The notes beneath the pieces were generated by a model. It was given only the letters and a program-made list of their open reading frames with translations. It ran no database searches and had not been told where the DNA came from. Positions 34,857 to 37,340 of a stretch of 49,887 bases of DNA are shown piece after piece (position 1 is the stretch's first letter; every line of letters starts with the position of its first letter). The position numbers were made by a program, and so were the translations under genes. Origin of the DNA: Acidobacteriaceae bacterium (lineage in GTDB: Bacteria; Acidobacteriota; Terriglobia; Terriglobales; Acidobacteriaceae); the NCBI GenBank assembly GCA_003165795.1, contig PMWW01000149.1, positions 735 through 50,621 of the forward strand, given 5' to 3'.

Positions 34857-35316
34857 TTATTCCGCCGGGTCGAGTTTCAACTGTTCGACGGCAGCGCCGC
34901 GCGCCTTCGGAGCTCGCTTGAAGGTAGCTTCCAACAGACGCGGATACCGCACCTGCGCGCCGCTTAACAATTGCTCGACCGTCAAAATCTGAATCCGCGG
35001 ATAGGTCCCCGTGTCGAACGCCGACTCGTCTTTGTAGAAGCCGGCTTCGGCGGCCTCTTTGACCATGGGCTTGGTCGGCTCTTCCATCGTGATGAGGACA
35101 CCGATGGCCGCCTTCTCGCGCTCGATCACCCCGCGCAGATCGCGCACGAATGCGACGTTAATGTTCTGCCCGGCTTTTACCGAAAAGATAATCTGCTTGG
35201 TTTTGCCGCTGTTGTCCACGTGGAAGTAGAGACGCCCGTCGATGCCACGGTCCGCGCCTTTGCGCTGGTCGGTGGGTCGTGCGCCGACAAGGCTCACCGA
35301 CCGCTAGGACCTGGGA
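34857..35316 (-). pseudogene. DNA methyltransferase C-terminal endonuclease-like remnant
   Basis: The frame reads QVLAVSLVGARPTDQRKGAD, then RGIDGRLYF...IIFSVKAGQNINVAFVRDL and VLITMEEPTKPMVKEAAEAGFY. This is the C-terminal PD-(D/E)xK-like module (IDG...SVK) typically fused to site-specific DNA methyltransferases that begin MADNKL.YGDNL. Homology begins within a few bases of the stop codon of the TPR gene and lacks the methyltransferase core. An open frame from ATG 35297 gives 146 residues that could still be translated. The matching N-terminal piece is at 36790-37091 on the same strand. Confidence 0.8.
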
Positions 35317-36342
35317 TCAAATTGTAGCCAAATGAGCGGGATCTGCTTGCATAGTTCTGAGCCCCAATTCCAGTTGCCGAGGGTCCGGAATGCCTTCTCT
35401 CAAAGACAGAATGGCCAAATTTCTTTGGGGCAATTCGTTAGTTGGATCGATTTCCATAGCGCGCTGCAAAACGCGCCGAGCCACGCTTGTGTCCCCGAGC
35501 AGAGCCAATGTCGCTCCATAAGCGTTGAGACATTCAGAATATGTGAGGCCCAATCCGAAAGATTCCCGGAACGTTCCTTCCGACGGAAGTTCAATCCGAG
35601 GGCGGTTCCAAGCTGCCGAACAAACAACAGCGAATCCGAGATTCTTGGCTGTAACTTGATCAGCGGGATCCAATCGAAATGCAACGACAAAGAAATGCAG
35701 CGCTTCTTCGAACCGCTTGATCGCAACGTGATCAATTCCCAGCTTTGTATAAGCCGCCGCGATATTCTTCTTGGCTAGGTTTACTGTTTCGGGGCTCGGT
35801 CGCAGGCGCATCGCCTTATCGAAATCCAAGATCGCTTTGTCCAAAGCACCAATTCTTGCGGTCGCGACTCCACGGTTCAAATGCGCCCTAGCCAGATTCT
35901 CGCGAGCGATCTCGTAGCCTGGCTGGAGTTCCATTATCAGGGCATAAACGACCATAGCGGCGTCCAGTGCGCCTTTTTCGCCTAGCTGATTCGCTGAATT
36001 CAGTAGCGCGCCGGCAAGTCGGCTGTCCAGCGCAAACGCCCGAGAAAAGTATCCTCTCGCCTCGTCAACGAGTGCGTTTTGCAATAAGAAAACTCCTTGC
36101 TCGAAAGCTTGATGTGCGTCCGGATAGCCCGGCGACTCCTGCTCTGACTGGCGCGGAACCTTGAGTGTAATTATTTCGTCCGAGCGAATAGCATCCAGGT
36201 GACGAGCAACTCCCGACTCGTCGCTTCCTTCGACCAAAACCATGCCGCCGCCTAGCGTCTCTACGACCGTCCCTATAAGCAGGTGATCTCCCACCCGGTA
36301 CTCGACAACGTCAAGCAGCTTAGGATTGATTTCGGTATTCAT
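35317..36342 (-). CDS. TPR-repeat protein with N-terminal DUF4926-like domain
   Basis: A 341-residue cytoplasmic protein. Residues 1-62 form a small beta domain (KLLDVVEYRVGDHLLIGTVV, ETLGGGMVLVEGSDESG) resembling DUF4926. From about 75 to 330 there are six or seven tetratricopeptide-like helix pairs (for example ALLNSANQLGEKGALDAAM, NLARAHLNRGVATARIGALD). It overlaps the DUF6883-like gene by four bases (ATGA), so the two are co-translated. Codon use is richer in AT than the neighbours. The stop codon abuts the methyltransferase remnant. A role as partner or immunity-like scaffold for DUF6883 is inference only. Confidence 0.75.
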   Translation of the reverse strand: MNTEINPKLLDVVEYRVGDHLLIGTVVETLGGGMVLVEGSDESGVARHLDAIRSDEIITLKVPRQSEQESPGYPDAHQAFEQGVFLLQNALVDEARGYFSRAFALDSRLAGALLNSANQLGEKGALDAAMVVYALIMELQPGYEIARENLARAHLNRGVATARIGALDKAILDFDKAMRLRPSPETVNLAKKNIAAAYTKLGIDHVAIKRFEEALHFFVVAFRLDPADQVTAKNLGFAVVCSAAWNRPRIELPSEGTFRESFGLGLTYSECLNAYGATLALLGDTSVARRVLQRAMEIDPTNELPQRNLAILSLREGIPDPRQLELGLRTMQADPAHLATI

Positions 36343-36746
36343 GGCGTCCTTCCGAGAGTTTTCGTTAGTTCTGTCTGCCGGTCAGGATCGATATAGCACG
36401 TCAGAAAAACTGGGTTCATAGGATTCTCCGTTCTTAGAATCCAGCCGACCGAGACAATTGCAACGTTTGCATTGACGCCTACAATCTCGTGATATGTCGT
36501 CCAGCGCTCGCCATACCGGTCATGCGTGCCTTTCTCGGCAGCCGCTCGGGCAAGCGTCCCCTTTATGACCGCAGCTAAGCTTTCCGCGTGACGCTGCTCT
36601 ATACCCAAGAATGCTTTGAAAATTCTGGCCTTGTGTCTCCCTATTTCGTGTTTGGGGTTGAGCACGTAGTCGCGGAGCTTCTGTAACTCAATTGTCGCAC
36701 GTTCGCGGTATGGCAACGTGTCCAAGCAGTCCCCCGTCGCGCGCAA
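36339..36746 (-). CDS. DUF6883-like protein
   Basis: A 135-residue protein whose LPYRERATIELQKLRDYVLN followed by GRHKARIFKAFLG and, near the end, VSVGWILRTE and FLTCYIDP match my recollection of DUF6883. That family is small, often sits next to DUF4926 proteins and is sometimes a C-terminal domain of polymorphic toxins. The conserved H-x-x-G-R-H-K could be catalytic or binding. The frame opens at TTG 36746; a later start near LPYRER is equally plausible. Four-base overlap with the TPR gene. No known activity. Confidence 0.7.
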   Translation of the reverse strand: MRATGDCLDTLPYRERATIELQKLRDYVLNPKHEIGRHKARIFKAFLGIEQRHAESLAAVIKGTLARAAAEKGTHDRYGERWTTYHEIVGVNANVAIVSVGWILRTENPMNPVFLTCYIDPDRQTELTKTLGRTP

Positions 36747-36789: not shown

Positions 36790-37091
36790 CGCTAACAAAT
36801 CGTTCACGTAACGCCGTGGCCGAAAAAGGTGCCGAAGGCCTCCACCACCCACCCGCCGCGCTCGACGCCCTCCTGATAGGCGCGCTCGGCGTCCAGGTTC
36901 CATTCCCACGTGTCCTCGAAGGCGGTGATCTGCGAAGAAGAGCGAGTGCCATCCTTCTCGGCGAAGAGAACGTTGTAATCCTGACGGCTGTTGAATGGGG
37001 GATCGAGATAGATGAGGTCGACCGACTCGTCGCGCACGTAACGGCGCAGCACGTCGAGATTGTCGCCGTAGAACAGCTTGTTGTCGGCCAT
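36790..37091 (-). pseudogene. DNA methyltransferase N-terminal remnant
   Basis: From ATG 37091 the frame reads MADNKLFYGDNLDVLRRYVR, DESVDLIYLDPPFNSRQDYN and ends in EAFGTFFGHGVT before a TGA at 36804. DPPF is the catalytic motif IV of beta-class amino-methyltransferases and this opening is highly typical of Mod-like enzymes. Shifting frame after the stop gives NDLLA, the next expected residues, so homology ends near 36790. The SAM-binding FxGxG part and several hundred residues are missing. The matching C-terminus is at 34857-35316. Confidence 0.85.
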
Positions 37092-37231
37092 TGCCCGCGA
37101 TTCTAGCAGGCGGCCAGCGCAAGCCTCAGTGGTTTCGTGTGGTGTTGTTGCCGCGAAGGGTTCCGTCCCGAGGGTGTCTGTGTGATAACTACTGTCGCCG
37201 CTACGCGGCTCGGTCGAATTTTCCACTTAAC

Positions 37232-37251
37232 CCCGGGGCTGGCACCCCGGG
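37232..37251. repeat. palindromic repeat, loop CTGGCA
   Basis: CCCGGGG-CTGGCA-CCCCGGG followed by CTCAC. The copy at 47362-47381 (GCCGGAG-TTGGCG-CTCCGGC then CTCAC) has a different stem but the same loop type and flank, so stems co-vary while the loop is kept. Confidence 0.65.
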
Positions 37252-37340
37252 CTCACTTCGCGGCCGCCGCTGCTCGGCTAGCTCGATTCGGATTTAGGAA
37301 AATCTGATCAAGTTACGGCGAACTACCTCAGCCGCTAAAG

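Follow-up and report, generated by a model that had tools for sequence, protein, structure and literature searches.

An overlapping gene pair within a disrupted gene

The window, that is the whole 49,887-nucleotide stretch of Acidobacteriaceae DNA analysed here, contains on its minus strand a small gene of the DUF6883 family followed by a gene whose product joins a DUF4926-like domain to an array of TPR repeats (Table 1). The two reading frames share an ATGA, exactly where the initial annotation had placed them and their four-base overlap, and on either side of them lie the remnants of a single gene for a fused DNA methyltransferase-endonuclease, a setting that the annotation had missed. The 36339-36746 frame opens with TTG, its exact start being uncertain, and the 35317-36342 frame with ATG. 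An overlap of this type is expected, from its sequence, to couple the translation of the two genes. A chance overlap of unrelated genes was ruled out because a second locus, L022, repeats both the two-gene order and the architecture of the window pair.

Table 1. The gene pair and its flanking remnants, in window coordinates
Feature	Position	Strand	Basis
N-terminal remnant of fused DNA methyltransferase-endonuclease gene	36804..37226 (homology 36819-37094)	minus	76.8% identity to L037 residues 26-120
DUF6883 protein, 135 aa, predicted BECR-fold RNase toxin	36339..36746	minus	PF21814 match; AF2 model; structural match to CdiA-CT Kp342
ATGA stop/start overlap of the two reading frames, 4 bases	36339..36342	minus	Sequence
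DUF4926-like/TPR protein, 341 aa, predicted antitoxin/immunity protein	35317..36342	minus	TPR_2 E 1.3e-15; alignment with L022 partner
DUF4926-like N-terminal domain, degenerate, residues ~1-70	36133..36342	minus	22.9 bits, wide DUF4926 profile
TPR array, residues 76-333, ~14 helices	35344..36117	minus	AF2 secondary structure, block pLDDT mostly 85-96; Pfam TPR matches
C-terminal Mrr-like endonuclease remnant of the same gene	34857..35297	minus	Mrr_cat E 4e-7; 68% identity to L037 residues 428-563

DUF6883 and DUF4926 genes occur as a pair

The small protein matches PF21814 with 68 bits (E 1.1e-18), above the Pfam gathering cut-off of 27. Its HEIGRHK segment (residues 33-39) had been described as an invariant-looking H-x-x-G-R-H-K, and across 116 aligned DUF6883 relatives this is true of K39 (100%) and nearly true of H33 (94%) and G36 (97%), but not of the second histidine (H38, 78%).

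We found DUF4926 directly downstream of DUF6883 in 80 of the 80 loci of a scan that took one genome per species, at distances of -60 to +130 nt (median 37 nt) and in Cyanobacteria, Chloroflexi, Planctomycetes, Acidobacteria, Verrucomicrobia, Bacteroidetes and Proteobacteria, among others; the pattern used for the scan was picked from sequences near that of the window, and the figure speaks for that part of the family. The pairing recurred in 26 of 29 loci of a Pfam-found sample of the phylum and, by profile, in 11 of 14 loci on viral contigs, the remaining three having a small open reading frame in the same place. Among 297 genomes of the phylum, matches to the two families fell mostly in the same genomes, side by side, and on plasmids of Stanieria and Rubrobacter the annotation gives DUF6883 and then DUF4926. 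Homologues standing as single genes in housekeeping contexts, which would speak against a conflict module, were thus not what the searches returned: the profile search confirmed the DUF6883 assignment, and the gene neighbourhoods make the DUF4926 pairing near-obligate across bacteria. A Streptomyces plasmid protein with an internal DUF6883 domain (L058, 2191-3678) adjoins an SMI1/KNR4 gene rather than a DUF4926 gene, and this gene is perhaps a different immunity partner.

The taxonomic family of the window bacterium yielded no further DUF6883, the window protein gave no match in phage records, and a sequence search of solved structures with that single protein found no relative. A profile search of the solved structures gave only matches to eIF3d, which were at chance level and were discarded.

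A predicted BECR fold with a possible toxin-like active site

In the BECR fold, an N-terminal helical segment precedes a four-stranded meander, and in many BECR clades a Ser or Thr in strand 4 lies at the active site (PMC3482391). The AF2 model of the window DUF6883 protein (alignment of 17 sequences, pLDDT 93.1) has this layout, with three helices at residues 21-28, 37-47 and 51-64 and then a four-stranded meander at 69-76, 79-89, 95-105 and 108-119; position 116, in strand 4, is Ser or Thr in 95% of the 116 sequences and Thr in the window. When the model was compared with the PDB by Foldseek, ranks 1-4 were all occupied by CdiA-CT of Klebsiella pneumoniae 342 (Kp342) with a probability of 1.00. 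The same toxin was the best match by VIA-align (Z 10.4 over 101 residues, 2.4 A), well apart from unrelated structures (Z 4 or less); it was followed by the CdiA-CT of E. coli 3006 (Z 7.8), after which came a Salmonella toxin, BrnT (6.6), RelE (5.4) and MqsR (5.0), and all seven matches with Z of at least 5 are bacterial RNase or toxin-antitoxin structures. Among predicted viral structures, the top two matches are phage minor capsid proteins.

The active site of CdiA-CT Kp342 is made up of K157, Y160, H170, R252 and T255 (PMC9086364). Conserved DUF6883 residues follow in the same order, namely K23 (100% of the 116 sequences), Y27 (99%), H33, R113 (91%) and S/T116, with identical R-x-x-T spacing, and plausibly correspond to that active site; the pairing was read from the order of the residues and the offsets of the aligned ranges rather than from a residue-by-residue structural alignment. 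By this inferred mapping the window protein keeps four of the five residues (K23, Y27, H33 and T116) and has Val where most relatives have Arg113. Because Val replaces this conserved residue, the window toxin may be attenuated or even inactive. The L022 toxin has Ser at the same position, and one other complete domain lacks Arg, Lys or Gln there (L104, Thr). That both toxins with a TPR-fused partner are without Arg113 may be a coincidence in so small a sample.

The DUF4926-TPR partner is real, degenerate and rare

The product of the second gene has strong TPR matches, amounting to about seven repeats, and its AF2 model is good for the TPR array and poor for residues 1-73, the DUF4926-like part. 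In the fusion proposed at the outset, the DUF4926 half has to be described as degenerate: PF16277 matches it with E 0.005 and 16.6 bits, below the Pfam cut-off of 29.1, but a wide DUF4926 profile, made from 125 relatives with the window left out, scores 22.9 bits on the first 72 residues and reaches 6.1 in the best of 200 shuffles. The L022 partner (genome G259, L022/L154) has 415 aa, with two clear DUF4926 domains and then TPRs, and it aligns over the whole of the window protein with 30% identity. Since the wide-profile score beats the shuffles and the L022 partner combines clear DUF4926 domains with TPRs, the fusion is a real one in spite of its degenerate domain.

This architecture is no local accident, but it is rare. 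A TPR-fused partner was seen at two of about 130 loci, those of the window and of G259, and a search of 396 genomes of the phylum, which set aside the partners of a few weak DUF6883 matches, returned the same two. Plasmids had no TPR-fused partner, and the one TPR-only match among them (Sinorhizobium) was without DUF6883 nearby. What is unusual about the locus is the fusion alone, the DUF6883/DUF4926 pair itself being widespread.

The degenerate DUF4926 domain, taken together with Val at 113 and with Ser99 in place of Arg, raises the question of whether the module has been domesticated into a simple RNA-binding/TPR scaffold or is being lost; the absence of Arg113 from both known TPR-paired toxins points the same way. 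We find this reading doubtful, given that both reading frames are intact, that their overlap has been kept and that K23, Y27, H33, K39, G79, W102 and T116 are all retained.

The same domain at the end of phage and Rhs-like proteins

On two viral contigs DUF6883 lies C-terminal to Phage_Mu_F (L067, E 1.9e-15; L071, E 5.5e-16), and in L070 and L072 it comes after families of minor head proteins. A small open reading frame follows each of these four phage head proteins, which look like MuF toxins whose toxin domain has no name. DUF6883 also ends open reading frames in G133, G544 and G152 that are called Rhs-like from the repeat signature 'NQPxxLxDPxG', and in G133 and G544 a DUF4926 gene comes next. 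In nearly all cases, a DUF4926-like gene lies right after the MuF or Rhs-like carrier. Several other long open reading frames that contain DUF6883 or DUF4926 were left out of account unless a carrier domain was found in them, since in GC-rich DNA they probably reflect upstream read-through.

A C-terminal domain that is exchanged among carriers and is followed by an adjacent small gene is the defining trait of polymorphic and MuF toxins (PMC3482391, PMC5576092). The DUF6883 family has this layout when its carrier-borne and stand-alone copies are taken together, the window copy being one that stands alone. A tree of 116 DUF6883 domains places the window copy in a divergent group (support 0.85) together with L022 and the fusions to MuF and Rhs-like proteins, a grouping that could be a long-branch effect.

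The existence of MuF-borne DUF6883 allows the locus to be seen as orphan immunity, guarding the cell from DUF6883 toxins that neighbours or phages deliver, with the resident toxin gene as a remnant; polymorphic toxin systems commonly include polyimmunity loci (PMC3482391). We hold this to be quite improbable, for the toxin gene is intact and its overlap with the partner gene indicates translational coupling, and it is the immunity domain that is the more degenerate of the two.

The pair replaces the middle of a methyltransferase-endonuclease gene

In homologues of the same family, the two flanking pieces belong to one open reading frame of ~550-650 aa with ~300 residues between them, as in the intact homologue L037 (569 aa). 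Residues 121-427, in L037 numbering, are missing from the window and the DUF6883/TPR pair stands in their place; the remnants on either side have a GC content of about 60%, the pair one of 53%. Prophage structural genes were not seen next to the pair, and Rfam and tRNA scans around it found nothing and thus gave no sign of a tRNA integration site.

The same position is occupied by other cargo in at least six relatives; counting the window, one family has seven or more genomes in which the middle of this gene has been refilled. Three of the cargoes are complete restriction-modification systems: a BglII-type endonuclease with an MT-A70 methyltransferase in L156, from the same genus as the window, and in L170, and a D12 methyltransferase, an HNH endonuclease and a control protein in L168. 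The others are a 460-aa protein without matches (L165), small open reading frames (L167) and a PDZ protein (L169). Across the refilled copies the breakpoints fall at residues 116-142 on the N-terminal side and at about 428-506 on the C-terminal side. In a tree of the N- and C-terminal pieces, L168 groups with the intact L192 and L169 with the intact L191; because disrupted copies group with intact ones, the replacements must have arisen several times, and a single shared ancestral disruption was rejected as the sole cause. The C-terminal pieces of the window and L156 differ with dN 0.04 and dS 0.8, which indicates purifying selection for most of their divergence, and the loss of the gene therefore looks recent in both, unless the C-terminal piece is still used.

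A pair that has displaced one defence gene, at a spot where relatives hold restriction-modification genes, could itself be a regulated anti-phage unit acting by abortive infection. The TPR array would then be a sensor, in keeping with the role of such arrays as protein-binding platforms, which restrains the RNase and frees it on binding a phage component. This is an unlikely reading of the locus. Neither gene matches a PADLOC family beyond chance (DUF6883 had no match and the TPR protein a single chance-level one, to DndE, E 0.013), the usual DUF4926 partner is without TPRs, and carriers of the MuF and Rhs-like kinds suggest toxins used between bacteria or between phages rather than resident defence.

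A predicted toxin-antitoxin module

We consider it probable that the window pair is a toxin-antitoxin (toxin-immunity) module, composed of a BECR RNase toxin and a TPR-fused DUF4926 antitoxin and acquired horizontally. The suggestion of a conflict module in the initial annotation is borne out to this extent by the family-wide pairing, the MuF and Rhs-like carriers and the BECR-like predicted fold. In such a module, the DUF6883 protein would be a small ribonuclease, probably a tRNase or another RNase that blocks translation, and the ATGA would keep the production of its partner in step with that of the toxin. By binding the toxin, the DUF4926 domain would shield the active site in the way that immunity proteins of BECR CdiA-CT toxins do, and the TPR superhelix might enlarge the binding surface or make the toxin's release depend on another protein. 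In the window the module has replaced the middle of the methyltransferase-endonuclease gene.

Among the closest known systems is CdiA-CT/CdiI of Klebsiella pneumoniae 342 (BECR tRNase; PDB 6CP9), whose fold the window toxin is predicted to share; its active-site residues resemble the conserved K, Y, H, R and S/T of DUF6883 in kind and order, and there too an immunity gene comes after the toxin gene. The two differ in that sequence identity is about 15%, the window protein stands alone without CdiA, its partner is a DUF4926-TPR protein and the conserved Arg is replaced by Val. The MuF polymorphic toxins of temperate phages resemble the family in having DUF6883 at the C-terminus with a small gene downstream, although the window copy is without the MuF domain; DUF6883 is not named in the available part of Jamet et al. 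2017 (PMC5576092). Unnamed DUF6883/DUF4926 pairs, such as those of Stanieria pSTA7437.01 and Rubrobacter plasmid 3, have the same toxin family and gene order but usually a stand-alone, single-domain DUF4926 partner of ~70-90 aa. The type II toxins BrnT, RelE and MqsR are likewise small stand-alone BECR proteins with antitoxins; they have no significant sequence similarity to the window toxin, and its antitoxin is not a DNA-binding protein of the BrnA, RelB or MqsA type.

A BECR toxin with its immunity protein is thus a known kind of system, and what is new is the assignment of this family to it and the TPR-fused partner. Across 5.4 million open papers DUF6883 is absent and DUF4926 occurs once, in a list; subscription papers, or another name, could cover the family. 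Genomes of many phyla, plasmids and phages carry both domains under the label 'domain of unknown function', and the evidence gives each a testable assignment, RNase toxin for the one and immunity protein for the other, with which annotators could put names to numerous gene pairs. With the TPR-fused partner there is a naturally occurring example of an immunity domain linked to a protein-binding array. More tentatively, and with rather low confidence, we suggest that the locus brings together an antitoxin whose TPR fusion senses a trigger, an unnamed BECR family and a recurrent exchange site that was replaced independently in several lineages of one family. A gutted restriction-modification gene that other conflict genes fill time and again would mark a definite place where related bacteria exchange defence genes.

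Two further observations concern the surroundings of this site. Upstream of the methyltransferase remnant lies a dispersed repeat: ~120 bp of sequence (37164-37287), without an Rfam match, has 18 further complete or partial copies elsewhere in the genome, with 74-91% identity. The genomes G350 (L167/L192) and G460 (L169/L191) each possess both a refilled and an intact copy of the methyltransferase-endonuclease gene, on different contigs.
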